A DNA stretch of 64,000 nucleotides, taken from NCBI GenBank assembly GCA_902791695.1, contig CADAWR010000002.1:124001-188000 (forward strand), in the 5' to 3' direction. How positions within the stretch are numbered: position 1 is the first letter of the stretch; every line of letters begins with the position of its first letter. The translations under genes and the position numbers were made by a program. Source of the stretch: an uncultured Bacteroidota bacterium. Its GTDB lineage: Bacteria > Bacteroidota > Bacteroidia > Bacteroidales > P3. Shown here piece by piece: positions 12,911-63,313 of the stretch. Under the pieces are notes generated by a model that worked only from the letters and a program-made list of their open reading frames with translations, ran no database searches and was not told the origin of the DNA.

Positions 12911-13043
12911 CACCGTACCTCCTCCGTCCCCTCTCCGTCTGTTTAACGGTTGTTCACCGGTTGTTTAACGGTTTAAACCATTAAACAACCGGTGAACAGT
13001 GGTAGAACAGACGGAGGGGGTACGTAGAGGCTATGTAGAGGTG
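12911..13043. repeat. 11-nt-period palindromic element, copy A
   Basis: Fills most of the 282-nt gap between gyrA and the yfcC-type gene. An 80-bp imperfect palindrome (12935-13014) is centred on TTT|AAA at 12974/12975. Each arm is built from 11-nt units such as TAACGGTTGTT and CACCGGTTGTT. The left flank (CACCGTACCTC, CTCCGTCCCCT) and right tail (ACGGAGGGGGT, ACGTAGAGGCT, ATGTAGAGGTG) keep the same 11-nt phase. Homologous copies are at 21412, 54171 and 63181. No ORF or transposase is inside. Confidence 0.85.
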
Positions 13044-21411: not shown

Positions 21412-21533
21412 TACGGCATTTCTTCAGTAGTTCTTCAGTAGTATTTCAGTGGTCCACTGAAGAAATACTGAAGAAATACTGAAGAACTACTGAAGAAATG
21501 ACGGAGGGGATACGGTGGGGAGACGGAGGGACG
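21412..21533. repeat. 11-nt-period palindromic element, copy D
   Basis: Lies in the 376-nt divergent gap between pfp (-) and the tolC-type gene (+). The arms are 11-nt units TTCTTCAGTAG / CTACTGAAGAA with a centre at CAGTGG-T-CCACTG (about 21453); the right arm has one extra unit (palindromic part 21417-21500). A tail of 11-nt units ACGGAGGGGAT, ACGGTGGGGAG, ACGGAGGGACG follows. The arm sequence differs from copies A-C but the architecture and tail are shared. The rest of the gap holds T/A-rich promoter sequence. Confidence 0.85.
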
Positions 21534-28627: not shown

Positions 28628-29951
28628 ACAACAGCTGCGGCGCATAGCGTACTATCAGTATCGCCGACAGCAACAGCGAGAGCACCTCGCTGATTGGCCA
28701 CGAGAGCCAGATGCCGTCGATGCCCATCAATGCCGGCAGTGTCCACACGCACGCCAGCTCGAACACCAGCGTCCGCGCAAATGCAGCCACAGCGCTCACC
28801 ACTCCGTTATTCATTCCCGTGAACAGGGCCGACACAAACATGTTGCAGCCGCTGATGAGGAACGCCAGCATGTAGATTCTCATCGCTTTCACCGTCAACT
28901 CCGTCAGCGCCGCGTCGTATCCCACAAACACCCGTGCCAGTGGCTCTGCAAAGATTTCCGCCGTCAGCGTCATCAGCACTCCCAGCACTCCCAGTATCGT
29001 GAACGACTTGAGCATCAGCGACCGCTGCTCTTTCACGTCGCCCGCACCGTAGTGGTAGCCTATCACCGGTGTGATGCCTATGTTGTAGCCGATAAACACC
29101 GCCGCGAAGATGAACGCCACATACATCATCACCCCGTAGGCCGACACACCGTCTTCACCCAGATAGCGCATCAGCTGCATGTTGTAGCAGATGGTCACTA
29201 TGTTCAGCGCAATGTTCGCCACGTATTCCGACAGCCCGTTCGTGCATGCCTTCCCTATGTAGGGCCATATCATTCGCGTAGGCCTGAGGTGCAGGCTACC
29301 TCTATTGCGCCGCGAGGCAAAGTAGTAGACCGGGAACAGACCGCCAACCAGGCAGCCGGCCGACGTGGCCAGCGCCGCACCGGCAACTCCCATGCCGCAC
29401 AGCCACACCAATATGGCGTCGAGCACTATGTTCGTCACCCCCGCCACCACGCTCATCACCGTCCCCAGCTGCGGCCGCTCCGCAGCCATGTAGAACGACT
29501 GGAAGGCACACTGCAGCACAAAACCCGGCATCCCTATCATGTTCAGCCGTATGTACTCTATGCACTCCTCCATCATCGGCTCGTCGGCTCCCAGCCACCG
29601 CGCCACCGCCGGTGCGCCCACTGCCAATGCAACGCCCAGCGCCACTCCCAGCAGCAACCCGAACTGCACCAACATCGTGAACACCCGGTCGGCCTTCTTC
29701 GGATACCCCTCCCCTTTTATCTTGGCCACCAGCGCTCCGCCGCCGCTGCCTATCATCAGACCCAGCGCCCCTATCATCATGATCACCGGGAACGTCAGGT
29801 TGATGGCGGCAAAACCAGTCTTCCCGGCAAAGTTCGCCACAAAAAATCCGTCTACTATCGAGTAGACGGATGTTATCAGTACCATGCCGATGCTCGGCAG
29901 CACCGAGCGCACTATACGGCTATGGCTGTAGTGTCCCGACAGTTCTACCAC
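28611..29951 (-). CDS. MATE-family efflux transporter
   Basis: 446 residues with 12 predicted membrane segments. YSIVDGFFVANFAG near 29-42 and a GSGGGALVAKIKGEG segment near 67-81 are typical of the MepA/DinF-like MATE branch (NorM fold). These antiporters expel cationic drugs using Na+ or H+. It overlaps the end of the upstream M13 peptidase gene by 7 nt and is probably co-transcribed with it. Confidence 0.92.
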   Translation of the reverse strand: MVELSGHYSHSRIVRSVLPSIGMVLITSVYSIVDGFFVANFAGKTGFAAINLTFPVIMMIGALGLMIGSGGGALVAKIKGEGYPKKADRVFTMLVQFGLLLGVALGVALAVGAPAVARWLGADEPMMEECIEYIRLNMIGMPGFVLQCAFQSFYMAAERPQLGTVMSVVAGVTNIVLDAILVWLCGMGVAGAALATSAGCLVGGLFPVYYFASRRNRGSLHLRPTRMIWPYIGKACTNGLSEYVANIALNIVTICYNMQLMRYLGEDGVSAYGVMMYVAFIFAAVFIGYNIGITPVIGYHYGAGDVKEQRSLMLKSFTILGVLGVLMTLTAEIFAEPLARVFVGYDAALTELTVKAMRIYMLAFLISGCNMFVSALFTGMNNGVVSAVAAFARTLVFELACVWTLPALMGIDGIWLSWPISEVLSLLLSAILIVRYAPQLLSKRAS

Positions 29952-32002
29952 AGCACCACTCTCTTCTCAGGTGCCAGCCACATGCCGTCACCCTCCTTGA
30001 TGCCGAAAGCATCGATGAATTCCGTCACCTGCGGCAGGGCCACATTCACACGGTTGCGACCCAGCGAGTGCACATCCATCTGCGTCAGCTGCAGCGCAGC
30101 GGCCGGACGTATGTTGCTTGCCCACACTGCCGCGTAAGCCAGGAAGAAGCGCTGCTCCGGCGTGAAGCCGTCCATCTCCTCCTTGTTCACCTGCTTCTTC
30201 GCCATAGCGTTCTGCATGGCCAGGTAGCTCACGTGCAAGCCGCCGTTGTCGGCTATGTTCTCACCCAGCGTCAGCTCGCCGTTGCCGTTCATCTTGCCAA
30301 GCTCCGGGTCGTCGAGGGCCACGCAGTTGTTGAAGGCCTCTATCAGGCACTGCTTGTTGGCGTCGAAATTCTTGGCGTCCTCTTCGGTCCACCAGTCGTT
30401 CAGGTTGCCGTTCTCGTCATACTGACGGCCCTGATCGTCGAAGCCGTGCGTCAGCTCGTGGCCGATCACCACACCGATGGCACCGTAGTTCGCGGCATCG
30501 TCAGCGTCAAACTGGAAGAATGGCGGCTGCAGGATGGCGGCCGGGAAGCATATCTCGTTGGTCGTGGGATTGTAGTAGGCGTTCACGGTCTGCGGAGTCA
30601 TCAGCCACTCGTCTTTGTCGACGGGCTTGTTGATCTTGCTCATCATGTAGGCCACATCAAACTCGTTGCTGCGCACCACATTGGCATAGTAACTGTCGTT
30701 CTTGATTTCCAAGCCGCTATAGTCGCGCCACTTGTTGGGATAGCCAATCTTCACATAGATGGTGCTGAGTTTCTTGTGGGCATTGGCCTTGGTCTGGTCG
30801 GTCATCCATTCGGCCATGTCGATGCGCTGACCAAGGGCGGTGATGAGGTTCTGCACAAGGGTCTCCATGCGGGTCTTGGCCTCGGCGGGGAAGTACTTCT
30901 CGACATACAGCTGGCCAAGGGCCTCGCCCATGGCACCCTCAACGGTGCTGGTGACGCGTTTCCAGCGAGGACGGATTTCCTCGCGGCCGCTCATCAGCTT
31001 GCCGAAGAAGTCGAATTCTGCATTCACGAAGTCGTCGCTCAGGTAGTTGGCGGCACTGGTAATCTGTTGCCATGCAAAGTAGGCCTTCAGGGTCTCAATG
31101 TCGGCATCGGCTAGCACCTTGTTTACCTCCTCGAAATACTTGGGCTGGGCAATGTTGAAGCTCTTCATGCCCTCCATGATGTTCATGGTCTCGAAGTAAC
31201 CCTTCCAGTCAATGTTGGGGTATACGGCATTGGCGCTGTCGACCGTGAAACGGTTGAAGGTAGCCTGCGGGTTACGGTTCTCAAGCTTGGTGTTCATGGC
31301 TTTGGCCAAACGGGTCTCGAAGGCCATCACCGTCTGAGCCAGCTTGTCGGCTTTCTTGCCGCTCATCTTGTCGTAGCCGGCCATAGCGAACTCCTTCTCC
31401 ATCAGCTCCACATAGCCCTTGCGGATGTTCTTGTTGTTGCCCTCGTCGAGCAGATAGTAGTCGCGGTCCCCCAGACCGAGGCCGCTTTGCCAAGCCCAAG
31501 CAATGCACATGTTGGCATCGTCCTTGTCGGCTTCGCCCATCACACCAAAGAGCACACCATAGCCGCGACGGTGCATCTTCAGCAGCTGAGCCCACACATC
31601 CTCGCGGGTCTTCAGGTTGTTGATTTCCTCCAAATAGGGCATCAGCGGGGCGGCGCCCTGCTCCTGCAGCTTCACGCTGTCCATGCCGATGTTGTACATC
31701 GTGGCGATCTTGTCGGCCAGCGAGCCGGCCTCGTTCTCATTCTTGCTGACGCTGTCGATGATGTCGTTGACGTTCTTCAGAGCGTTCTCAGCCAGCACGT
31801 CGAAAGCACCGTAGCGCGAGTGCTCGGCGTCGAGGGGGTTCTTGGCCATCCAGCCGCCGCAGGCGAACTGGTAGAAATCGTCCTCCAAACGGACCGTAGT
31901 GTCAAAGTTGTCCAGATTCACACCCGATTTCAACTCGGCCTTGTGCTGGCAACCAGTAGCGATAACTGCCATAGTAGCAATGCTTAATAAGGTTTTTTTC
32001 AT
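29945..32002 (-). CDS. pepO: M13-family metalloendopeptidase lipoprotein
   Basis: 685 residues. A lipoprotein signal with lipobox VIATGC puts it at the envelope. The catalytic HELTH zinc motif is at 515-519 and ENIADNGG, holding the third ligand, lies about 55 residues later; a late NVALPQVTEF/DAFGI segment is also as in neprilysin-type M13 enzymes. It cleaves small peptides outside the cytoplasm. Its promoter box lies at 32040-32047, between the gene and the left boundary repeat of the accessory island. Confidence 0.94.
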   Translation of the reverse strand: MKKTLLSIATMAVIATGCQHKAELKSGVNLDNFDTTVRLEDDFYQFACGGWMAKNPLDAEHSRYGAFDVLAENALKNVNDIIDSVSKNENEAGSLADKIATMYNIGMDSVKLQEQGAAPLMPYLEEINNLKTREDVWAQLLKMHRRGYGVLFGVMGEADKDDANMCIAWAWQSGLGLGDRDYYLLDEGNNKNIRKGYVELMEKEFAMAGYDKMSGKKADKLAQTVMAFETRLAKAMNTKLENRNPQATFNRFTVDSANAVYPNIDWKGYFETMNIMEGMKSFNIAQPKYFEEVNKVLADADIETLKAYFAWQQITSAANYLSDDFVNAEFDFFGKLMSGREEIRPRWKRVTSTVEGAMGEALGQLYVEKYFPAEAKTRMETLVQNLITALGQRIDMAEWMTDQTKANAHKKLSTIYVKIGYPNKWRDYSGLEIKNDSYYANVVRSNEFDVAYMMSKINKPVDKDEWLMTPQTVNAYYNPTTNEICFPAAILQPPFFQFDADDAANYGAIGVVIGHELTHGFDDQGRQYDENGNLNDWWTEEDAKNFDANKQCLIEAFNNCVALDDPELGKMNGNGELTLGENIADNGGLHVSYLAMQNAMAKKQVNKEEMDGFTPEQRFFLAYAAVWASNIRPAAALQLTQMDVHSLGRNRVNVALPQVTEFIDAFGIKEGDGMWLAPEKRVVLW

Positions 32003-32085: not shown

Positions 32086-32114
32086 GCGCCAAACAGGCGC
32101 AGAACAAACGCCAT
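32086..32114 (+). repeat. Left 29-bp boundary repeat
   Basis: Begins GCGCCAAACAGGCGC (a 5-bp stem with AAACA loop) and continues AGAACAAACGCCAT. Its reverse complement recurs at 40706-40734 with one mismatch (A for G at the sixth base). No other copy was noticed in the window. Confidence 0.85.
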
Positions 32115-32699
32115 AAAAAACAAATAAATTCCTTACTGAAGAAAAAAAGGGGGGGGATAGAAATACATAATGTTCCGATAGTCCTATGAGTGCGCTTGGC
32201 GCACGGCAGCCCGCTCCAAGGGAGGCTTTATTCTCCTGCTCGCTGCGCGAGCGAAATCTGGTAAATCTTGTAGATTACTGCCGCCTGCGGCGGGGATTCC
32301 GGGTGCGGGGCTGGGTGAATCTCGTAGATTTTTCTAAGGTATCGCTGCGGGGCGCGATGGTTATGTTTGAGTGTAAAAAACGCTTGAATATACCGTATAC
32401 TGTATACTCTTGTATAAAAGACCGCCGGTTTGCCTTGTGCAAGTCCCTTGTCCTTAGTAAGAACGGCAAAGAAAAGCGTCCGGCGTTCGGTTGGGAATGT
32501 TTTTAAATTGTGTGATTAACACCGCGTTTTTTCACCTCGACAAAGCCTAAACTAGTTTAGCTCTGCGCTCGGCTTACGAAACGGTCGAGATTTCGGTCCA
32601 CCGAAGCAGGACGCTAATGTTACTTCTTCTAAACGTGAATTATCGTTAATGCACAGAACAGGGGATTACCCCCTGTCCACATACACCTCAAAAGATGAT
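32115..32699. other. Non-coding island end with short palindromes
   Basis: 585 nt with no convincing gene. It holds an A7G8 tract (32142-32156), several small GC hairpins (for example CCGCC-TGC-GGCGG near 32281), two related AATCT(T/C)GTAGATT words (near 32265 and 32319), the 20-mer at 32381-32400, a copy of the AACGTGAATTA-type word near 32634, and an ACAGGGG/CCCCTGT hairpin at 32658-32676 just past the WYL gene stop. A 106-codon frame at 32186-32506 has repeat-derived, low-complexity composition and was not accepted. Confidence 0.6.
32381..32400 (+). repeat. 20-mer island-end repeat, left copy
   Basis: CGCTTGAATATACCGTATAC, identical in reverse complement to 40547-40566. Longer relatives with extra GTATACC heptamers form an inverted pair at 40117-40143 and 40224-40250. 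Confidence 0.8.
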
Positions 32700-33407
32700 T
32701 TATGTGAGGTATTTCATCCATAGACTCTTATTCTCCTTCCAGAATTTATCAGGCGAAAATCCTAAGGCTGGTCGATAAACGACATCTGTTATCTTAATAT
32801 CAGTCAGCATATTCAAAGGCCATATCTTTTCTATACGATAGTTTGTATGACCCAGAACATACCAGACGTAATCCTTCAAAACCAAGCCCCTCGGCTCAAA
32901 ATGCTCTTGAAAATATGGAAATCTGTTCTTCGGGTCATGGTAGTATAAATCAACACACTTCTGCTGGCGGATGGCATCCATCAGGATATTCACATTCTCC
33001 ACTCCAGTGGACTTGCAATCGATGTACATATACTTCTTGTCCTCTTCCGAATCCTGAAACTGCCTCATTGCCGCCGATGCCTCAAAAGCCATAAGGAACG
33101 GCATTGTCCAAGGATTGCTATCGCTCTTCGGCTCTTCCACTAGCCGATAGCGATACCTTCTGTTTTCTTCCGACAATGCTTTCCTTCCCACCTCGTGTTG
33201 AAGGCGATTGTCGCATTCTATCTTGATGCCAAATCTGTCACGGAGTTCTTTCAGATAGTTGTGAAACGTCCTCTTGGGCAGAATTTTCTCCATATTCGGC
33301 TCATCGACAAGTTTATCTATCAATTGGTCGAATGTGATGCCAGTCTCTCCGGCTCTGCGGAACTGTGCAACCAGCCAAGAAAGCATTTCCAAATTTTTGT
33401 AGTCCAT
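32700..33407 (-). CDS. WYL-domain transcriptional regulator
   Basis: 235 residues. The N-terminal part (1-80) has a winged-helix look (ITFDQLIDKLVDE, KRTFHNYLKELRDRFG). The C-terminal part (about 130-235) matches a WYL domain: MDAIRQQKCVDLYYHD, then FEPRGLVLKDYVWYVLGH and an IWPLNMLTDIKIT segment. WYL regulators bind small or nucleic-acid ligands and often control phage-defence or DNA-damage genes. It is transcribed divergently from the Pol III alpha-like gene across a 195-nt gap, the usual layout for regulator and target. The gene is AT-richer than the core genes around the island. Confidence 0.85.
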   Translation of the reverse strand: MDYKNLEMLSWLVAQFRRAGETGITFDQLIDKLVDEPNMEKILPKRTFHNYLKELRDRFGIKIECDNRLQHEVGRKALSEENRRYRYRLVEEPKSDSNPWTMPFLMAFEASAAMRQFQDSEEDKKYMYIDCKSTGVENVNILMDAIRQQKCVDLYYHDPKNRFPYFQEHFEPRGLVLKDYVWYVLGHTNYRIEKIWPLNMLTDIKITDVVYRPALGFSPDKFWKENKSLWMKYLT

Positions 33408-33428
33408 TTGATATTATGTTTCTCGGTG

Positions 33429-33436
33429 CAAAGGTA
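33429..33436 (-). promoter_or_regulatory. -7 box of the WYL regulator gene
   Basis: TACCTTTG on the minus strand, perfect TAnnTTTG, 22 nt upstream of the ATG at 33407. Confidence 0.65.
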
Positions 33437-33602
33437 CGAAAAACAATCCGTATGTAAAATAAATGTCATACAAGTGTTAAAGTATCAAACCATCAAATAT
33501 TTATAAATCAACAATCTAACCACCTTCAAAAAAGATAATAAAAAGACCTCTTCGTATTACTAATGTAGAGCTCTCCCAAAATAACATCAAAAATTAAACA
33601 AT

Positions 33603-35228
33603 ATGAAAACCGACAAAAAACAAATTTCAGAGCCTACAACCAACAACAAGGTGGAGGCGAAAAACAACAGTCAGTCGCCGAAGATTCCACCGACTCCCAT
33701 CCCCATCGAGCTGTCAGACGTAGTGAAAAACGAGAATGAGTATCTGGAGTATCTCGTCTGGAAGGGAGCGGACGACCGTTATGGGTTTGATTTGAGTGAG
33801 GAGATAGAAGGGCGAATCACTTATGAACTCAATGTGATTAAGAAAAAGGGTGTTGCAGGATATTTCCTGATGTTTTGGAACATCGTCAGAACTGCTCGTG
33901 GGGAACTGGGCGTGCTTGTGGGACCAGGAAGAGGACGCACACCTGGCTCCATCGTGGCTTACTGTCTACGCATCACCGACATTGACCCGATACGATATGG
34001 ATTGCTTTTTGAGCGTTTCTATAGCACTCAGAGCAAGGGGCTTCCAGACATGGCCATAGACGTTGAAAGCGAAGGCAGGCAGAAAGTAATCACATGGTTA
34101 AAAAACTATTATGGCGAGAAATGCGTTGCACATATCATTACCCAAGGAACAACAGGCTTAAAGTATACTATGGCAGACTTACAGCGAATGGAGAGGATGC
34201 CTATCGAGATGTACAACGCCCGTCAACGGTATATTCCAGAAAATGAACGGCACATTGGCATCGGTGCGATTAGTATTATCATTGCGCCTGAAGACATTAG
34301 CAACATAGTGCCTGTATTCGAGGTATTTGACAAATCGAGCGGAGAGAAACTGCGCGCCATCGCAAATGATGACAGTGCTATTAAGGATGCCGGACTTGTA
34401 AGAATAGGACTACTTGGGCTTAACGTGCTGTCTGTTATAAAGAGTTGTGTGTCCAGGATAAAGAAAACCACAGGCAAGGAAATCGATATGAAAGCCATTC
34501 CTCTCGATGACGAAGCCACCTTAAAAATCTTCAACGAAGGGAATACTATCGGCGTATTTCTGTTTGAGAGTACGGGTATGCGTATGAAACTACGCAGATT
34601 GAAGTCTCTGTCCTTCAATGACCTTATTGCAGCCGAAGCCCTCTATCGGCCTGGGACAATGGGTTTATTCGGAAAATTTATAGACAGAATAAACAGAGAG
34701 GAAGATATAACATACCTCTTGCCGGAAATGGAGCAATGCCTGGGAAGTACCTACGGCCTAACTATCTATCAAGAGCAAATCATCCAGTTAAGCCAGATAC
34801 TGGCCGGTTTCACCCCAGGTGAGAGTGCTGTTTTAATCAGAGCAATCTGCCTCAGAAAAAAGGACATTCTCGACTGGTTGGAAATACAATTCATGGATGG
34901 GGGAATGAAGAAAGGACATCCCAAAGATATCCTTGAACAGATATGGAACCAATGGAAAACGGAAGGGTGTAAAATATTCTATAAAAGCCACTCAACATGT
35001 TACACAATGATGGCATTCCAGACAGCATACCTCAAGGCACACTATCCGGCAGAATTTATGGAAATATTGATAAACCAAGCCCGAGACGATGAAGCCCGAA
35101 TGAATGAACTGATAGCTGATTGCCAAGCCAACGGACTTATCGTAGAGGATGAGACTGCCAAGGTTAATATTGGAGATGGCATTGTTGTAAATATTGATAG
35201 AAAGAAGGTCAGAAATGCAAACCAATAA
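33603..35228 (+). CDS. Truncated, catalytically altered DNA polymerase III alpha-like protein
   Basis: 541 residues. After a polar N-tail (1-40) the protein aligns by eye with the palm, thumb and fingers of DnaE: GPGRG near 106, LFERF near 134, LPDMAIDVE near 145-153, LLGLNVLS, FESTGMRMKL, LYRPGTMG, YGLTIYQEQI, FYKSHSTCYTMMAFQTAYLKAHYPAEFM. The PHP domain and everything after the fingers (clamp-binding, OB fold) are absent. Of the three catalytic aspartates, the PDFDVDF motif reads PDMAIDV (first Asp is Ala) and the FDFLGL motif reads IGLLGL (Asp is Gly). Polymerase activity is therefore unlikely; a template-binding or regulatory role is inference. Full-length DnaE must be elsewhere. Confidence 0.85.
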   Translation: MKTDKKQISEPTTNNKVEAKNNSQSPKIPPTPIPIELSDVVKNENEYLEYLVWKGADDRYGFDLSEEIEGRITYELNVIKKKGVAGYFLMFWNIVRTARGELGVLVGPGRGRTPGSIVAYCLRITDIDPIRYGLLFERFYSTQSKGLPDMAIDVESEGRQKVITWLKNYYGEKCVAHIITQGTTGLKYTMADLQRMERMPIEMYNARQRYIPENERHIGIGAISIIIAPEDISNIVPVFEVFDKSSGEKLRAIANDDSAIKDAGLVRIGLLGLNVLSVIKSCVSRIKKTTGKEIDMKAIPLDDEATLKIFNEGNTIGVFLFESTGMRMKLRRLKSLSFNDLIAAEALYRPGTMGLFGKFIDRINREEDITYLLPEMEQCLGSTYGLTIYQEQIIQLSQILAGFTPGESAVLIRAICLRKKDILDWLEIQFMDGGMKKGHPKDILEQIWNQWKTEGCKIFYKSHSTCYTMMAFQTAYLKAHYPAEFMEILINQARDDEARMNELIADCQANGLIVEDETAKVNIGDGIVVNIDRKKVRNANQ

Positions 35229-35395
35229 AGATTGCAAGTTTAGTATTATGCGCAAAATAAATGTAATGCAAAAGTTAATGTACCCTTGCGGAAAATTCGC
35301 ACAAAACACTCATTGATAGCAAAATGTAATTTTGACAAAAAGTTCTTGTTGGAAGTCATTCGTATTATATAAGTAGATAAAATTTGCAACACGAT

Positions 35396-35926
35396 ATGAA
35401 AACGACAAAGGAAAACACCCAGAAAAAGAGCCTCGACGAGGCCATCGCCAACGCCGCCAACGCGTGCAAAGTTATCTGCACCATCAACGCCCGCTTCGCT
35501 CAGAATGGAATCACCATGCTTGTAATGGGCGACACCCACTGCAAAATCGGCGAGAAAGGCAAGCGCTCCCTATGCATTGACCGCGACGATCTGGCCCTCT
35601 TCAACGCCATCAGTATGCGCGAGGCATTGCAAATCGCTGACTTGGCTGTCAAAATCAAGCAGCGCGGCAACAATCCCTACCCTCCTATCAATGTAATTCT
35701 CAGCGGCGACACCCGCAGGGGAATGTATTGGGCAAATCTGCTGGACGAGCTGCTAACCCTCCACCTCAAGAGCCTGCCGTTCTCCGCGCTCTACAGCGGC
35801 AAGCACTATGAGGGTAAGGGCCTCTTCATCATCGCCTCCGACCTGCCGGTGGACGAGCTGAAAAGGGGTTTCCCGAAACCGTACTCTGATGTCATACTCC
35901 TGGAGGAAACTCCTTCGGGAGTATGA
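35396..35926 (+). CDS. Orphan protein of the island
   Basis: About 176 residues from the ATG at 35396; the frame opens at a TTG 12 nt earlier. Soluble, with a charged N-terminus (MKTTKENTQKKSLDEA) and a mixed alpha/beta sequence. No family was recognised. Features worth noting are MGDTHCKIG (about 44-52), ILSGDTRRGMYW (about 101-112) and an overall pattern in which hydrophobic strands alternate with loops. Its base composition is GC-richer than the neighbouring Pol III-like and nuclease genes, so the island is a mosaic. The last codons form part of a hairpin that may be its terminator. Confidence 0.7.
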   Translation: MKTTKENTQKKSLDEAIANAANACKVICTINARFAQNGITMLVMGDTHCKIGEKGKRSLCIDRDDLALFNAISMREALQIADLAVKIKQRGNNPYPPINVILSGDTRRGMYWANLLDELLTLHLKSLPFSALYSGKHYEGKGLFIIASDLPVDELKRGFPKPYSDVILLEETPSGV

Positions 35927-35951
35927 CATTGGAGATTATATTGGTTTTTTT
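35889..35951 (+). terminator. Hairpin and T-run at the orphan gene end
   Basis: ATGTCATACTCC (35889-35900) pairs perfectly with GGAGTATGACAT (35918-35929), with an inner GGAG-GAAA-CTCC pairing inside the loop. The stem contains the stop codon. A run of eight T follows at 35945-35952 after a short spacer. It separates the orphan gene from the nuclease operon promoter. Confidence 0.55.
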
Positions 35952-35954
35952 TCG

Positions 35955-35962
35955 TAAATTTG
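35955..35962 (+). promoter_or_regulatory. -7 box of the nuclease operon
   Basis: TAAATTTG, perfect TAnnTTTG, 46 nt upstream of the ATG at 36008. Its position excludes the upstream TTG at 35960 as translation start. Confidence 0.7.
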
Positions 35963-36007
35963 CATTTTAAAAATTGTAATTGTCATCTTTTAATATCCAA
36001 AGAAAAA

Positions 36008-36901
36008 ATGGGAAAATACACACAAGTCGAAGATAACTTGCTAGATATCAGCAATCCAATTTATGACATCCTGTCATCAGCAAATGCCCCTGTTTGGTGG
36101 CACAATGTCAAAAACGATGATTCCCTATATATTGAGATTCGAAAAGACAACTATCTAGATGTTTATTTTAAAGGAGGTTGCGTCGCAAAAATAAGTTACA
36201 ATCAAAGAAAAAAACAATTTGTTGTTGTGACACATCCGAAATATTTGAACAGAAAAGAAAAAAATAATTCCGCGTGGTTTAAAAAAAGGGTTAAAGACGG
36301 GAAAATAGTGTATGAAGCAATTTACCAAGACTGCACAGAGTGGCTTGAAAACCCATCAAAGTTAGAAATACTCAAAAACAATGTTACTGAGAACTATTCT
36401 GGAAATGAAGAGGGTGAAAATACCTCCGAAAAATTAATTCAAAGCAAACTCATCATTAACCACAGAAATAAATATCTTGACTCCGAGTTTGCTTATCGAT
36501 TCTATGACAACCATAGAAATACAATACGCATTGACCTTGTTAGAATTGAAAATGACCTGTTTGTTTTCGAAGAACTAAAAAGAATCATAGATTGCCGTTT
36601 GAGGACAACAAAGGGTGACCCGGAGATTTATACACAGATGAACAATTATGAGGGTTTTATACGTCAAAACCAAAAAGCTTTGACAACCTATTACCAGACA
36701 CTGTATAAAATCAAGATAAAATTGGGATTGCCTGTGCCACCAGTCGAAAACATTGAGTCTATTTGCGTAAACCCTCAACCGACACTGCTTATTATCAACA
36801 ATTATGATGAGATTAGTACAGGAAAAGCAGACCGGATTTCTTCAATAACCAGTTTTTTAGAGCAGAAACATATTAATTTCGATATAAGAACGGAGATATG
36901 A
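36008..36901 (+). CDS. Predicted PD-(D/E)xK nuclease
   Basis: 297 residues from the ATG at 36008. The C-terminal half carries a nuclease-like core: E160 in a helix (LDSEFAYRF), D176 in a strand (IRIDLV), E189-x-K191 (FVFEELK) and then Q210-x3-Y214 (QMNNY), the order of motifs in RecB/Cas4-like PD-(D/E)xK enzymes. The N-terminal half (1-125) is a separate unrecognised domain, perhaps for substrate recognition. The gene is AT-rich, unlike the core genes. Its stop overlaps the start of the RNase J-like gene (ATGA at 36898-36901). The nuclease call is from motif reading, not a family match. Confidence 0.65.
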   Translation: MGKYTQVEDNLLDISNPIYDILSSANAPVWWHNVKNDDSLYIEIRKDNYLDVYFKGGCVAKISYNQRKKQFVVVTHPKYLNRKEKNNSAWFKKRVKDGKIVYEAIYQDCTEWLENPSKLEILKNNVTENYSGNEEGENTSEKLIQSKLIINHRNKYLDSEFAYRFYDNHRNTIRIDLVRIENDLFVFEELKRIIDCRLRTTKGDPEIYTQMNNYEGFIRQNQKALTTYYQTLYKIKIKLGLPVPPVENIESICVNPQPTLLIINNYDEISTGKADRISSITSFLEQKHINFDIRTEI

Positions 36902-38175
36902 CTATCACCATTCATCGCGGAATTGACCAAATTGGTGGGTGCATCACGGAAATTGCATCCGCTAATGGGACGAAGATCTTGATTGACCTTGGCCACAACT
37001 TGCCGTCGGGCGACGAGCCGACAGTAGACAAATACGAGGATGATGCCACTATTGACGACCTGCTGAAGGGTGTCAATGCCATCTTCTACACCCATCCCCA
37101 CGGCGACCATGTGGGCTTCGAAACACAAGTGTCGAAAAGAGGTATTCCTCAATACATCGGCTCCGTCAGCAAGGAACTGATGCTCCTGCTCAAAGAGCAT
37201 CTGGCTTTCACAGGCAACCCTAAACACAAAGCCGAGTTGGATGCTTTTAAGGAGTTCCATACTTTTGTTGCGAAAGATAAAATCCCCATCAAAGACATCA
37301 CCGTTACGCCTTATTTTGTCAGTCATTCGGCTCCCGACGCATACATGTTTGTCATCGAATGCGATGGCAAAAAAGTGCTTCACACGGGCGATTTCCGCGA
37401 CCACGGATACCGCGGCAAGGGGTTGTTGCCCACCATCAGCAAATATATTGTGCGTCGAAAAATCGATGTTCTTATCACCGAAGGTACAATGCTCTCGCGC
37501 GATGATAGTCGTCTGATGACGGAGAATGAATTAAAACACAATGCGATAGAATTGTTTCGCAACCACCGTAACCTTTTTGTTATGTGCTCTTCGATGGATG
37601 CCGATAGGTTGGCATCTTTTTATCAGGCGGCTCTGGCTACTGGGAAAATGTTTGTTGTGGACGGCTACCAGTGGAAAGTCCTCGAAACCGTTGAAAACAC
37701 CCTCGGCACCCATAGTAGCCTCTATCGCTTCCCGGCACGAAGATATTTTGCAAAACATCTAGAGGAGATTCAAAATGCGGCACAAAATAAGGGAGTCGTC
37801 ATGATGGTTCGCAACAACCAGAAATGCCGCGAATTCATAGACACTATATATCCGACACTGAGACCCGAAGAAACATGCTTCCTCTACTCCCAGTTCCTCG
37901 GATATATTATGAAAGAACACAGCGCATTCCAGCAGAGCACCTACGACTTCGTCCACTCGCGCGACTGGCATTTTGAGTATCTGCACACCTCGGGACATGC
38001 TTCGCGCGAGGCGCTGGCGATGGTGTGCAACAAAGTCAATCCTCGATTGGCCATCATTCCGATCCACCGTGAAGCCGAAAGCGACTTTCGAAGCCTCGAT
38101 ATTACTCAAGAACTGAAAGACAAAGTGCATACCGAAAGCACAACCATCGAAGGTGTGAAAATCATCATCAAATGA
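36898..38175 (+). CDS. RNase J-like beta-CASP metallo-beta-lactamase protein
   Basis: 425 residues. Metallo-beta-lactamase motif 2 is HPHGDH at 66-71, motif 3 His at 143 (SHSAPD), motif 4 Asp at 165 (HTGDFRDHG). The beta-CASP part has ITEGT at 193-197 (acidic motif A), HTSGHAS at 363-369 and IPIHREAE at 387-394 (motif C His390). This is the active-site set of RNase J and related RNA/DNA 5' exonucleases or endonucleases. The protein is shorter than housekeeping RNase J (about 550 residues) and lacks its C-terminal domain. It is coupled on both sides by ATGA overlaps. Confidence 0.9.
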   Translation: MTITIHRGIDQIGGCITEIASANGTKILIDLGHNLPSGDEPTVDKYEDDATIDDLLKGVNAIFYTHPHGDHVGFETQVSKRGIPQYIGSVSKELMLLLKEHLAFTGNPKHKAELDAFKEFHTFVAKDKIPIKDITVTPYFVSHSAPDAYMFVIECDGKKVLHTGDFRDHGYRGKGLLPTISKYIVRRKIDVLITEGTMLSRDDSRLMTENELKHNAIELFRNHRNLFVMCSSMDADRLASFYQAALATGKMFVVDGYQWKVLETVENTLGTHSSLYRFPARRYFAKHLEEIQNAAQNKGVVMMVRNNQKCREFIDTIYPTLRPEETCFLYSQFLGYIMKEHSAFQQSTYDFVHSRDWHFEYLHTSGHASREALAMVCNKVNPRLAIIPIHREAESDFRSLDITQELKDKVHTESTTIEGVKIIIK

Positions 38176-38771
38176 AGATTCTTCATCTCTCCGACACCCA
38201 CGGGAAACACCGAGAAATCACTACTATGCCACCCGCCGATGTGCTGGTGCATAGTGGCGATTTCACTATGGCTGGCGGTGATATGGAAGCCCTCGACTTC
38301 ATAGAATGGCTCTGTGATTTACCCTACAAGCACAAGATTTTCATTGCCGGCAACCATGATGATTGTATGCTGGATGCCACATTGGAAGGTCTGCCGGATG
38401 ATGTGCATTATCTTTCCGATAACGGTATCACCATTGACGGTGTATCATTCTATGGCGCACCGATGTTTGTCACATTCGAGGGTGAGGATTTGAAAGAGAT
38501 AGAACATTACGAACAGGTACCAGATAACATCGATATTCTGATAACCCACCGCCCTCCTCTTGGTATACTGGACAGCATCGACGATAAACTACACTACGGC
38601 AGTTCCTTTCTACTGAATAAGGTCTCCAAAATCAAACCAAAGATGCACCTGTTCGGACACGTTCATGATGCATACGGAACAATGGTCTGGAAAGGAATAA
38701 CATTCAGCAATGCCGGTGTAACTGACTGGATGTATAATGTTCGGTATTATCCACGACTGCTGATATACTAA
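38172..38771 (+). CDS. Calcineurin-like metallophosphoesterase
   Basis: 199 residues. Metal-site motifs in order: LSDTHGKH at 6-13, HSGDF near 27-31, AGNHDD near 59-64, ITHRPPLGILD near 123-133, and FGHVHDAYG near 158-166. The THRPPLGILD segment and small size fit the MPPED/239FB-type branch (UPF0046-like) of phosphodiesterases. Substrates may be cyclic nucleotides, nucleic-acid ends or nucleotides. It overlaps the RNase J-like gene by 4 nt, making it the third gene of the operon. Confidence 0.9.
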   Translation: MKILHLSDTHGKHREITTMPPADVLVHSGDFTMAGGDMEALDFIEWLCDLPYKHKIFIAGNHDDCMLDATLEGLPDDVHYLSDNGITIDGVSFYGAPMFVTFEGEDLKEIEHYEQVPDNIDILITHRPPLGILDSIDDKLHYGSSFLLNKVSKIKPKMHLFGHVHDAYGTMVWKGITFSNAGVTDWMYNVRYYPRLLIY

Positions 38772-38929
38772 AAAATTTCTGGATTAGCAAAAAATTGGTT
38801 GGGAGGGGCACAGTGGAGGTGAAAGGTGGGGGCTATTGAAAGAGATGCCCTACGGGCAAAAGGGAGGGTTATAGGTGAGTTGATGCCCACGGCTAAAAAC
38901 TGGCGCCCTTACAGGGCTGGGGGGATACG

Positions 38930-38962
38930 AAAAAAGGCCCCACGGATGGAAATCCGAGGGGC
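38930..38962 (-). terminator. Intrinsic terminator of the DUF6266-like gene
   Basis: On the minus strand GCCCC-T-CGGAT, loop TTCC, ATCCG-T-GGGGC (38937-38962), one bulge-like mismatch, followed by C and six T (38930-38935). A textbook intrinsic terminator, 46 nt past the stop codon of the gene at 39009. The rest of the gap from 38772 holds only small GC hairpins (GCCC-TAC-GGGC near 38855) and no gene. Confidence 0.85.
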
Positions 38963-39008
38963 TGACACTTGGAAGATACTGTAGGATGGGTAGTGGTGGT
39001 AGTTGGGG

Positions 39009-39662
39009 TTAGCCGATGACGCCGGTGCCGATGTAGCTGCTGTCGCTAATCTTGCCCTGGTTTTCGCGGCCGTCGCCGATGGCGAAGCCGTAGACGTGTA
39101 CGGTGAGACCAGTCCAGCTGCCGGGGACGCGCACATCCGCGCTGCCGGTGGTACGCAGAGATGGAGCCGAGAGGATACCCTGCTTGGTGTCGGGCTGATA
39201 GATGAACATGTACACCTTGTCCTGAGCGTCAGAACCGGGCATGTCGGCACTGGTGCTGTAGGTGACGGTGACGCGCTGAGGCTCGGCGAAGGAGGCGTTG
39301 CCGAAGCCTGCCTGCGGCAGGTTACCGAGGGCGCACTTGAGGCTGCCGTAGTCGACCTCAGCCTCACCACCCATGACACTGACAGCGCCCTGGTTGGCCT
39401 TCATGAAGGCGTCGCAGATGGTCACCAGAGGACCGTACTGTTTGGCCTTGTTCTTGAGACCGATGTTGCTGGCGCCAATGAAAGCGGCAGCGAGCTGGGC
39501 GAGAGTCTTGAAACGCTCGCGGTTGTCCATCTGGGCGCTGGTGCGCGGATTGCGGACACCGGCAGGAAGGCCTTTGAGGATGTTCACGCCGTGAACGATG
39601 GAAGCAGTGTTCAGACCGAGACGGCCTTTGAATGCAAAGTTGGATTTTTTGATAATTGCCAT
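39009..39662 (-). CDS. DUF6266-like protein
   Basis: 217 residues, no signal peptide or membrane segment. The opening MAIIKKSNFAFKGRLG, the NPRTSAQMDNRERF block (about 38-51) and the ending DSSYIGTGVIG match the layout of DUF6266 proteins common in Bacteroidota, whose function is unknown. The likely promoter lies more than 250 nt upstream (39925), giving a long leader that contains 11-nt direct repeats. A strong terminator follows the gene. Such genes occur in many variable copies in gut Bacteroidota. Confidence 0.65.
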   Translation of the reverse strand: MAIIKKSNFAFKGRLGLNTASIVHGVNILKGLPAGVRNPRTSAQMDNRERFKTLAQLAAAFIGASNIGLKNKAKQYGPLVTICDAFMKANQGAVSVMGGEAEVDYGSLKCALGNLPQAGFGNASFAEPQRVTVTYSTSADMPGSDAQDKVYMFIYQPDTKQGILSAPSLRTTGSADVRVPGSWTGLTVHVYGFAIGDGRENQGKISDSSYIGTGVIG

Positions 39663-39761
39663 AGTAGTTGAGTTTTAGGTGGTTAATAGATGTGTGAGTT
39701 GTATTTTATATCGTGGCCGTGATATACTTGATTGACAATTAAATTATTATATATTTTTAGG

Positions 39762-39805
39762 ACGGAGTGTGGACGGACTGTAGACGGAGTGTAGACGGAC
39801 AAACC
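39762..39805. repeat. 11-nt direct repeat, copy E
   Basis: Four consecutive 11-mers: ACGGAGTGTGG, ACGGACTGTAG, ACGGAGTGTAG, ACGGACAAACC. The unit length and the ACGGA core match the tails of palindromic elements A-D, but no inverted arm is present here. Confidence 0.8.
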
Positions 39806-39924
39806 ACGTTAGTAGAGACCAGCTGCTGTTGAACAAGAGACAGCAAGATAGCCGGCGCCCGCAAAGAGATAAAAAGGTTACTTTTCCCATTTTGAGTTGA
39901 TTTAGTTGGTTGCTTTTCTGGTTG

Positions 39925-39932
39925 CAAAAATA
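39925..39932 (-). promoter_or_regulatory. Possible -7 box for the DUF6266-like gene
   Basis: TATTTTTG on the minus strand fits TAnnTTTG but lies 263 nt upstream of the ATG. No closer match was found, so the leader may be unusually long. Confidence 0.35.
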
Positions 39933-40116
39933 TAGCGAAAATTCCAACTAAATCGGAAAATGGAAAAAACAACACCCCTTTTGGCTGGAAATCAACTACC
40001 TGCGAGAGATATTATAATATATATAGTCTCGGAGGTCGTTGACGAACTTGCTGCCGTTGGAATAGATTAAGCAAGCGAATGCAAGATATGAAAAAAACGA
40101 ATGGTAGATGGAAGAG

Positions 40117-40250
40117 GGTATACGGTATACGGTATATTCTAGCAAAAATGGAGTGCGTTTTCTGCTTTTTATATTAAGATATAAATGATTATCTCTTATT
40201 TAATATAATATCTCCCACAAATCGCTGGAATATACCGTATACCCTATACC
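40117..40250. repeat. Inverted repeat pair of the GTATACC family
   Basis: A 27-bp arm at 40117-40143 (GGTATACGGTATACGG... with 7-nt units) and its reverse complement at 40224-40250 differ at two positions and enclose 80 nt of AT-rich DNA. Six T follow at 40251-40256. The inner part matches the island-end 20-mer with one change each. Confidence 0.75.
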
Positions 40251-40290
40251 TTTTTTCCAGTTTTGGAAATCGGGCTTTTTTACAGACACA

Positions 40291-40683
40291 ATGAAAAATT
40301 ACAAGAGAGAAAACCTGGACGTTTCCATTCTGACCCAGCGCGGTGCACCGCACATGTGGGTCATGAACGGGAAAGCCTTACTTGATGAAGAGAGTAAGGA
40401 CATGAAGTTTGTAGAGAATGCCCCGCGCGGCGAGAGATCTGTGGAGGTCGGCAGAACTGCACATTCAAGGTATGTGCGCCGTCCGGACGGAATGTACACC
40501 ATCACTTTGAGGCTGGATGGTTCCTGTTTTCAACAGAGGGTAGACGGTATACGGTATATTCAAGCGAATTTTATGGTAGACGACACGACCGCTACCGCGA
40601 TAGCAAGCGAAGTGCGCAGCCCCCCCCTTTTTTTGATGAAACTTATTATAGGTGGAGACGTATCATGGTACGTCTCTACATGA
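40291..40683 (+). CDS. Short hypothetical protein, 3' end in a repeat
   Basis: 130 residues; not firmly recognised. The first 80 residues read like a real protein (HMWVMNGKALLDEES, RGERSVEVGRTAHS, RRPDGMYTITLRLDG), soluble and with no signal peptide. From about residue 84 the frame runs through the island-end 20-mer and the C9T7 tract, so the tail looks like translated repeat. The gene may be a truncated version of a longer or differently ended Bacteroidales gene. It lies 22 nt inside the right boundary repeat. Confidence 0.45.
   Translation: MKNYKRENLDVSILTQRGAPHMWVMNGKALLDEESKDMKFVENAPRGERSVEVGRTAHSRYVRRPDGMYTITLRLDGSCFQQRVDGIRYIQANFMVDDTTATAIASEVRSPPLFLMKLIIGGDVSWYVST
40547..40566 (-). 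repeat. 20-mer island-end repeat, right copy
   Basis: Exact reverse complement of 32381-32400, lying inside the short gene at 40291-40683 and 54 nt before the C9T7 tract (40620-40635). Confidence 0.8.
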
Positions 40684-40705
40684 GCGGAGAGAAATGGAGC
40701 GTCAG

Positions 40706-40734
40706 ATGGCGTTTGTTCTGCGCCTGTTCGGCGC
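40706..40734 (-). repeat. Right 29-bp boundary repeat
   Basis: Reverse complement of 32086-32114 except one base. It ends exactly before the stop codon (CTA on the plus strand, 40735-40737) of the next minus-strand gene, so the island edge abuts the 3' end of a core-side gene. Confidence 0.85.
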
Positions 40735-54170: not shown

Positions 54171-54303
54171 CAACGTACCCTCTCCGGCTCTTCTCCGTCT
54201 GTTCACCGGTTGTTCACCGGTTGTTTAACGGTTTAAACAGTCGAACAATCGGTGAACAACCGGTGAACAGACGGAGCGGGTACGGAGGGGGTACGGAGAG
54301 GCT
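54171..54303. repeat. 11-nt-period palindromic element, copy B
   Basis: Lies in the 371-nt divergent gap between lpd (-) and the GroES-like gene (+). The 80-bp palindrome (54195-54274) is centred on TTT|AAA at 54234/54235. Left units: CTCCGTCTGTT, CACCGGTTGTT twice, TAACGGTTTAA. The right tail repeats ACGGAGCGGGT, ACGGAGGGGGT, ACGGAGAGGCT. A separate GCCTGC/GCAGGC hairpin with inner CCCG/CGGG pairing is at 54140-54162. Confidence 0.85.
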
Positions 54304-63180: not shown

Positions 63181-63313
63181 CCTCGGTGCCTCTCCGTACC
63201 CGCTCCGACTGTTCTACGGTTGTTCACCGGTTGTTTAACGGTTTAAACCGTCAAACAGTCGTAGAACAACCGTAGAAATGACGGGGAGGGGGCGAAGAGG
63301 GGGCGAAGAAAAT
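63181..63313. repeat. 11-nt-period palindromic element, copy C
   Basis: Lies in the 403-nt divergent gap between the small exported protein gene (-) and yajC (+). The 80-bp palindrome (63205-63284) is centred on TTT|AAA at 63244/63245. Left units: CTCCGACTGTT, CTACGGTTGTT, CACCGGTTGTT, TAACGGTTTAA; the outer unit of the right arm also reads CTACGG, a paired change relative to copies A and B. Tail: ACGGGGAGGGG, GCGAAGAGGGG, GCGAAGAAAAT. Confidence 0.85.

Follow-up and report, generated by a model that had tools for sequence, protein, structure and literature searches.

An island with inverted family ends and a nested candidate anti-phage cassette in an uncultured Bacteroidales genome

Results

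The stretch of DNA studied here (the window; 64,000 nucleotides, positions 124,001 to 188,000 of contig CADAWR010000002.1, assembly GCA_902791695.1, from an uncultured Bacteroidales bacterium) carries an island of 8.65 kb between a gene for an M13-type peptidase and a gene that we call g301. We propose, with moderate confidence, that this island is a non-autonomous mobile element whose ends belong to a family, and that it harbours a nested, separately moving and modular cassette of 6 kb with a putative anti-phage role. In what follows, G000 denotes the genome itself, G097 the closest relative found, and C numbers denote contigs, the window being part of C2.

The island is framed by the 29-mer GCGCCAAACAGGCGCAGAACAAACGCCAT at 32086-32114, on the plus strand, and by an inverted copy at 40706-40734, on the minus strand, with a single mismatch, as a preliminary description of the sequence had stated. 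The inverted pair is real and chance is excluded, 0.00 matches at up to 3 mismatches being expected from 100 shuffles of the window. The left copy reads outward as ATGGCGTTTGTTCTGCGCCTGTTTGGCGC on the minus strand, and the right copy abuts the stop codon of g301. Two inner features follow in the mirror order that the same description had noticed. An A7G8 tract at 32142-32156 matches C8T7 at 40620-40634 in 15 of 15 positions, and the 20-mer CGCTTGAATATACCGTATAC at 32381-32400 (plus strand) is identical to its inverted copy at 40547-40566 (minus strand). The 20-mer is part of a 37-nt inverted pair of 86% identity, and for a 15-base part of it (up to 2 mismatches) the G000 stretches checked contain no copies beyond those of this island. 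No transposase, integrase or relaxase was recognised among the open reading frames (ORFs) of the island in scans with Pfam (10 proteins, including g301 and a short ORF), PADLOC (8), NCBIfam (9, including g301) and PHROGs (8), which bears out the absence reported earlier.

Comparison with G097, in which g301 is 86% identical over 295 residues and the M13 peptidase 99%, places the borders of the island at the 29-mers. DNA homology covers C2 151651-156078 and restarts at 164735, that is, up to 32078 and from 40735 in the window; its left limit lies 7 bases outside the left 29-mer, and on the right it begins with the first base outside the 29-mer. The left flank is the gene for the M13-type peptidase (29945-32002, named as such in the preliminary description), whereas g301, on the right, has no Pfam family and is followed by a polA-like gene, recognised by eye. 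Matches to g301 were present in 37 of 119 genomes of the genus, the own one included, and stretches were fetched around 16 of the other 36. At 5 of these 16 loci (G019, G008, G023, G141 and G101) the two flanking genes are adjacent, with ~170-430 bp between the match ends, which corresponds to an empty site. Occupied and empty sites thus both exist between species, and the gene order is not fixed across the genus, the circumstance that had been named as speaking against an insertion. In G097 the distance is 4 kb, and in the other 10 the peptidase lies elsewhere in the stretch or has no match. The cassette proteins had no match in these 16 stretches, some being shortened by contig ends. The G097 insert at the island site (L088:3499-7462) is unrelated, and its 4 kb contain genes for a protein with BspA/InlB repeats and for a zeta-toxin-like ATPase; the gap between g301 and the peptidase can therefore be regarded as a repeated insertion site.

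The 29-mer is itself the outer part of a longer end module, composed of a C/T tract, a spacer and ATGGCGTTTGTTYTG. By reading of the sequences, 11 such ends were recognised, 8 in G000 (C2 left, C2 right, C5, C28, C10, C12, C17:8205 and C17 at 27.2 kb) and 3 in G097 (C6:95029, C6:243706 and C20), the latter genome having been searched with an exact 15-mer only, so that its count may be higher. Two types can be distinguished. The L-type end consists of a TATCGGAACATTATGT-like segment, the C/T tract, 24-27 bp and GGCGTTTGTT; the R-type end consists of the C/T tract, GA, ~44-45 bp in all and ATGGCGTTTGTT, with a longer spacer at C2 right. The left 29-mer of the island is thus the outer part of an L-type end, whose inner part (32115-32186, minus strand), with the A7G8 tract and the TATCGGAACATTATGT-like segment, is common to C5, C28 and C17 (27.2 kb). 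The R-type inner part (40603-40705, plus strand), which reads GCAAGCG(A/G)AGYGCGCAG-C8T7-GA, recurs at C17:8143 and in G097 C20, as well as, from the tract onward, at G097 C6:95029. The C/T tract lies just inside 8 of the 11 ends, the others being C10, C12 and G097 C6:243706.

Searches at several stringencies agree on a dispersed family of small size. With up to 3 mismatches the 29-mer is found at 3 places in G000, the third being a copy with 1 mismatch at C10:413, and its 17-base core ATGGCGTTTGTTCTGCG (up to 2 mismatches) at 7 places, the weaker copies at C12, C17, C5 and C28 having 0, 1, 2 and 2 mismatches, respectively. A search with the tract AGC8T7 (up to 2 mismatches) returned four core-bearing ends (both of C2, C5 and C17:8143) and also a tract at C17:27211, where the adjoining end is diverged. 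Of 120 genus genomes, only G000 (4 copies) and G097 (2 copies) contain the exact 15-mer CAGAACAAACGCCAT; the full 29-mer (up to 3 mismatches) occurs in 1 of 61 genomes, its own. The scattering of the 29-mer over many intergenic sites, which would have spoken for a generic dispersed intergenic repeat, was not observed. We judge such a repeat unlikely from these genome counts, in which the 15-mer search is an exact one and the 15-mer itself is absent from 5 of the 11 ends.

A second element with ends of this family was recognised at another locus. C5 begins with an L-type end beside a gene for an M16-type peptidase, and C17:1-8221 finishes with an R-type end beside a 334-aa gene and gmk. Since the M16 and gmk genes are neighbours in G097 and G023 (they lie on different contigs in G019), we infer that C5 and C17 carry the two ends of one element, called element 2, across an assembly gap. 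Its C17 part encodes an MmeI-like enzyme, a protein with a BT4734-like primase match and small ORFs. No recombinase was found among 6 scanned element 2 proteins, an assembly gap lying between C5 and C17 and the whole genome being unscanned for recombinases.

Element 2 splits an intergenic palindrome whose site is undisturbed in G097. The M16-gmk gap of G097 holds an intact ~100-bp palindrome with 11-bp periodicity, and that of G023 a different intact palindrome; in G000, one half-palindrome, with a small extra hairpin, lies outside the L-type end, and the centre and the other half lie outside the R-type end. Upstream of a peroxiredoxin-like gene (by eye), the L-type end of G000 C28 and the R-type end of G097 C20 are found at the same orthologous half-palindrome. 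Altogether, a half-palindrome lies outside 7 of the 11 ends (C5, C28, both of C17, C12, C10 and G097 C20), and a remnant outside G097 C6:243706. Contig C2 has 10 long hairpins in 179.6 kb, whereas two shuffles by simple dinucleotide blocks gave 0 each. Eight of the 10 belong to the main 11-bp-periodic palindrome family. Their mean self-identity peaks at lag 11 (0.59), with lag 22 second (0.43) and lag 8 third (0.38); the other lags give 0.19-0.33. The hairpins are not simply terminators, because they are found in divergent, convergent and tandem gaps according to the ORF calls.

Several other observations concern these palindromes. Within the window, intergenic palindromes or units with 11-bp periodicity lie at 12925-13024, 21417-21500, 54174-54295 and 63254-63272, and tandem 11-bp units (GACGGAGTGTA-like) at 39761-39800, upstream of the DUF6266 gene described below, resemble palindrome arms. 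Several relatives carry palindromes of like form and different sequence. In G097, a 4-kb insert with a 29-mer-like end (C6:239787-243781) encodes a radical-SAM-like protein of 509 aa, recognised by eye from a cysteine motif; its counterpart in G000 is a palindrome only (C2 120724-120819).

The nested cassette spans 32690-38774, the outermost limits of DNA homology to a copy in a phage contig. A putative regulator with a WYL domain (32700-33407, minus strand; Pfam E 3.7e-7, PADLOC WYL E 1.3e-11) is divergent from an operon of five genes on the plus strand. The first, at 33603-35228, encodes DnaEx (541 aa; Pfam DNA_pol3_alpha and DNA_pol3_finger; PDB relatives 2hpi, 2hnh and others), a DNA polymerase III alpha core devoid of PHP and C-terminal domains, in which two of three catalytic Asp are replaced. 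Among 5 aligned DnaEx proteins, all have lost at least one of these residues, 4 have lost two and the fifth one. With the three positions that we take to be catalytic in the alignment, DnaEx is predicted not to possess the site of an active three-Asp DnaE polymerase. It is followed by u176 (35396-35926), a protein with no match in the four libraries, whose AlphaFold2 model (mean predicted local distance difference test score 84.4) found no PDB match at E<=0.001, the best being 0.03. Next comes u297 (36008-36901), a putative effector at a variable position, then a metallo-beta-lactamase (MBL)/RNase J-like protein (36898-38175; Pfam Lactamase_B_2, Lactamase_B and RMMBL; TIGR00649 at E 4.9e-17, below its cut-off) and a metallophosphoesterase (MPE; 38172-38771; Pfam Metallophos), which matches the PADLOC candidate defence family PDC-S10 at E 6.1e-72. 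In PADLOC terms, the MPE is thus assigned to a candidate defence family and the WYL protein to CRISPR-associated regulators, the other 6 proteins having no match.

This cassette recurs well outside the island. Scanned with u176, genome contigs yielded 12 loci whose recorded source is Bacteroidales or Bacteroidetes, mostly metagenome-assembled genomes; 4 of these loci correspond to stretches from G009, G035, G111 and G008. Together with the window and the phage contig, 14 loci can be compared; u176 is present in all by construction, WYL in 14, MPE in 13 (the remaining locus is cut by a contig end), MBL in 10 and DnaEx in 6. In G008, u176 precedes DnaEx, and the G009 copy of the cassette is flanked by core genes and adjoins what looks by eye like a tRNA sequence. 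At the variable position, 15 ORFs picked in the 14 loci fall into 7 groups (blastp E<=1e-3). An EELK motif in u297 hints by eye only at a PD-(D/E)XK nuclease; a regular expression for this fold matched 3 of the 15 variable ORFs, u297 not among them, and gave no consistent result. The middle ORF of the phage contig matches DUF6946 (E 1.1e-21) and, below the cut-off, PDDEXK_4 (0.0032), and among 9 other middle ORFs 8 had no Pfam match at 0.05 and one had a weak match to DUF4369.

The phage copy lies at L188:5295-9937, in a 103.6-kb IMG/VR contig, between a tail gene (phrog_6305, E 2.9e-53) and a tape-measure-like gene, the product of which matches phrog_9959 (E 4.4e-52) but has its best match in a family of unknown function. 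Over 3,238 bp the DNA of this copy is 94.9% identical to that of the window; at the MPE gene the identity is 88.4% (602 bp), and the middle part (u297 and MBL) is replaced. A viral scan with the phosphoesterase returned the same phage contig only. From its occurrence in a phage contig at 94.9% DNA identity, it follows that the cassette can move independently of the island.

Two further ORFs lie to the right of the cassette. One, of 130 aa (40291-40683, plus strand), has no family and may not be a gene. The other (39009-39662, minus strand) belongs to DUF6266 (Pfam), and its predicted model has an Fn3-like C-terminal half. Genes of this family are found just inside the ends at C5, C28, C17 (27.2 kb) and C12, as well as within the island. 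Their C-terminal part is 98.7% identical between C5 and C28 (300 bp), that of C17 94% to both, and that of C12 88% to the island copy. The near-identity of C5 and C28 despite differing flanks suggests a recent spread. Viral scans with DUF6266 found no relatives. We considered DUF6266 as the mobilising enzyme and hold this unlikely in view of the Fn3-like half of the predicted model, for which the best PDB match is an interleukin chain (E 6.7e-4), Fn3 domains coming next at E 2e-3 and above; moreover, the copies at C1, C3 and C5:20819 are solitary genes among unrelated neighbours, and the surrounding 19-kb stretches lack a C/T tract.

The primase of element 2 (767 aa) matches BT4734-like_N weakly (Pfam E 0.0017, below the cut-off). 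Matches to it occur in 47 of 119 genus genomes, 16 of which, the own one included, are at >=68% identity; the gene is intact in element 2, and the identity in the 15 others is 68-85%. In 12 stretches from 11 genomes, all containing the primase, p130 is present in 11, p150b in 7, p240 in 5 and p150a in 5. Pfam scans of 10 picked neighbours gave EcoO109I and a C5 methylase (G097), an N6 methylase, an N6/N4 methylase, Cas1, a helicase with a PLD/NgoFVII-like domain, two AAA_14/DUF4143 proteins, a resolvase (L210) and one protein with no family. Since the G097 stretch alone among these 12 has a C/T tract, the ends look lineage-specific, and judged by these matches the primase gene is more widely spread than they are. 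Viral scans with the primase found no relatives. At L216:3030-6410 (G023), a Cas1 gene (Pfam) with a Cas2-like ORF and a CRISPR-like array, both recognised by eye, lies just upstream of the primase block.

Discussion

Taken together, these results favour a mechanism in which a recombinase supplied in trans, which is not among the island genes, would move DNA between ends of this family; alternatively, palindrome-assisted or homologous recombination through the repeats may do so. The cassette would act as a modular system against phages, or in competition between phages, in which the DnaE core may be a decoy or a sensor of replication intermediates or forks and the exchangeable protein the effector, nuclease-like in at least the phage-contig version. 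An anti-phage role is probable in the light of the PDC-S10 match, the presence of a WYL regulator, the position at which the gene varies and the restriction-type genes carried by element 2. A bolder proposition, which we regard as quite unlikely in its entirety, is that these islands form a new class, devoid of a recombinase, which inserts into long intergenic palindromes of 11-bp periodicity at their centre, perhaps by way of hairpin or cruciform processing, and collects anti-phage cargo, one module being a conflict system shared with phages and built on a dead replicative-polymerase core and an exchangeable effector.

Of the preliminary description, which had raised a non-autonomous cargo element, a decayed transposon or a region between two copies of a dispersed repeat, part has stood: the ends form a dispersed family, they coincide with the borders, empty sites exist and no recombinase is apparent. 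What did not stand is a target duplication, none being visible at the island, and the 29-mer as the complete end. The reading was changed further in two respects, namely that another element with these ends lies in a palindrome and that the cargo is a separately mobile cassette found elsewhere.

A number of points weigh against the proposed mobile island. The sequences directly outside the 29-mers (CTAG... and AAATTC...) share no direct repeat. The right border coincides with a stop codon, a place at which homology would be expected to break off through ordinary divergence of intergenic DNA as well. At C5, C28, C17 (27.2 kb) and C12 the 29-mer is not the true terminus, because conservation runs ~100 bp past it, and for the C10 end the inner DNA is missing, as the contig stops there. 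Further C/T tracts, at C9:82485 and C26:421, have no end motif, and no half-palindrome lies outside C2 left, C2 right or G097 C6:95029. The C5-C17 join rests on synteny across an assembly gap, and the identity of the DUF6266 copies could reflect gene conversion. The comparisons, all of them between species, revealed neither excision products nor circles nor insertions that differ between strains.

The alternative that survives best, unlikely in our judgement, is homologous recombination as the sole route of entry: end modules and palindromes would be dispersed intergenic repeats offering homology to incoming DNA, and dedicated transposition would play no part. The lack of a recombinase in the four-library scans and of a target duplication would fit it, and so would the appearance of the ends as mosaics of small repeats and palindromes, the different DNA held at the same sites in G097, and the G009 cassette, which has no such ends. 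However, left and right ends each have a conserved spacing and element 2 has one of each; the exact 15-mer is confined to 2 of 120 genus genomes; and near-identical units of DUF6266 plus end are found at different loci. We find it improbable that the system is a decayed transposon whose own recombinase was lost, all present copies being fossils, in view of the apparently recent spread of the C5/C28 copies and the intact primase with its close matches in 15 genomes. This is so even though the C12 copy has decayed, with only the C-terminal piece of DUF6266 and ~110 residues of the primase left, the other ends exceed those of the window in length, and the family scans covered only 10 chosen primase neighbours, one of them a resolvase. 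It is barely credible that the 29-mers are two arms of one old palindrome split by the island, as element 2 did split one: although several relatives carry 11-bp-periodic palindromes directly after g301 and the 29-mer has an 11-bp-like repeat, its sequence differs from those palindromes, and at other loci the 29-mer or core is single, mostly with the same inner tract and spacer, unlike a local arm.

Should the ends and their palindrome target be confirmed, defence-type genes would spread between intergenic sites of uncultured Bacteroidales with no obvious integrase, and the two end types together with the palindrome target would provide a search handle. As a candidate defence system, the cassette lends itself to testing and has a relative borne by a phage; the core of a replicative polymerase has apparently become a non-catalytic component of it. 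Searches of open-licence papers, judged by titles and starts of abstracts, turned up nothing on these ends or this cassette, and none of the papers searched contains the word DUF6266. PDC candidates are abundant in rumen genomes (PMC13356809); PDC-S10 goes unnamed in the four passages of that paper that were consulted, and a count of DnaE in its text gives 0.

It is instructive to set the island beside known systems. The cassette MPE matches PDC-S10, which by its name is presumably a single-gene candidate, but in the island it belongs to a cassette of several genes. Genes for BT4734-like (VirE-type) primases of Bacteroidales have HU and amidase genes as neighbours; the element 2 primase has only a weak match to BT4734-like_N, and several of its scanned neighbours are of restriction type. 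Group IIC introns and insertion sequences that target repetitive extragenic palindromes or terminators insert at intergenic hairpins, whereas the island has no reverse transcriptase or transposase match and carries a cargo of several genes. Integrative mobile elements exploiting Xer (IMEX) and other Xer-dependent integrative elements integrate via host recombinases with no integrase of their own; the lack of an own integrase and the replication-type gene of element 2, a primase, are comparable, but the ends described here lie at several intergenic places rather than at one site. As in a DDE-type transposon, inverted repeats terminate the island at its borders, although neither a target duplication nor a transposase accompanies them. 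From non-autonomous transposons and cargo bounded by miniature inverted-repeat transposable elements the island differs by its asymmetric left and right modules with a C/T tract, by the lack of a target duplication and by an autonomous partner not having been found (6 element 2 proteins scanned). It resembles them in its inverted ends, in the cargo between them, in having no recombinase of its own and in the presence of related ends at several loci of one genome, the eight of G000.

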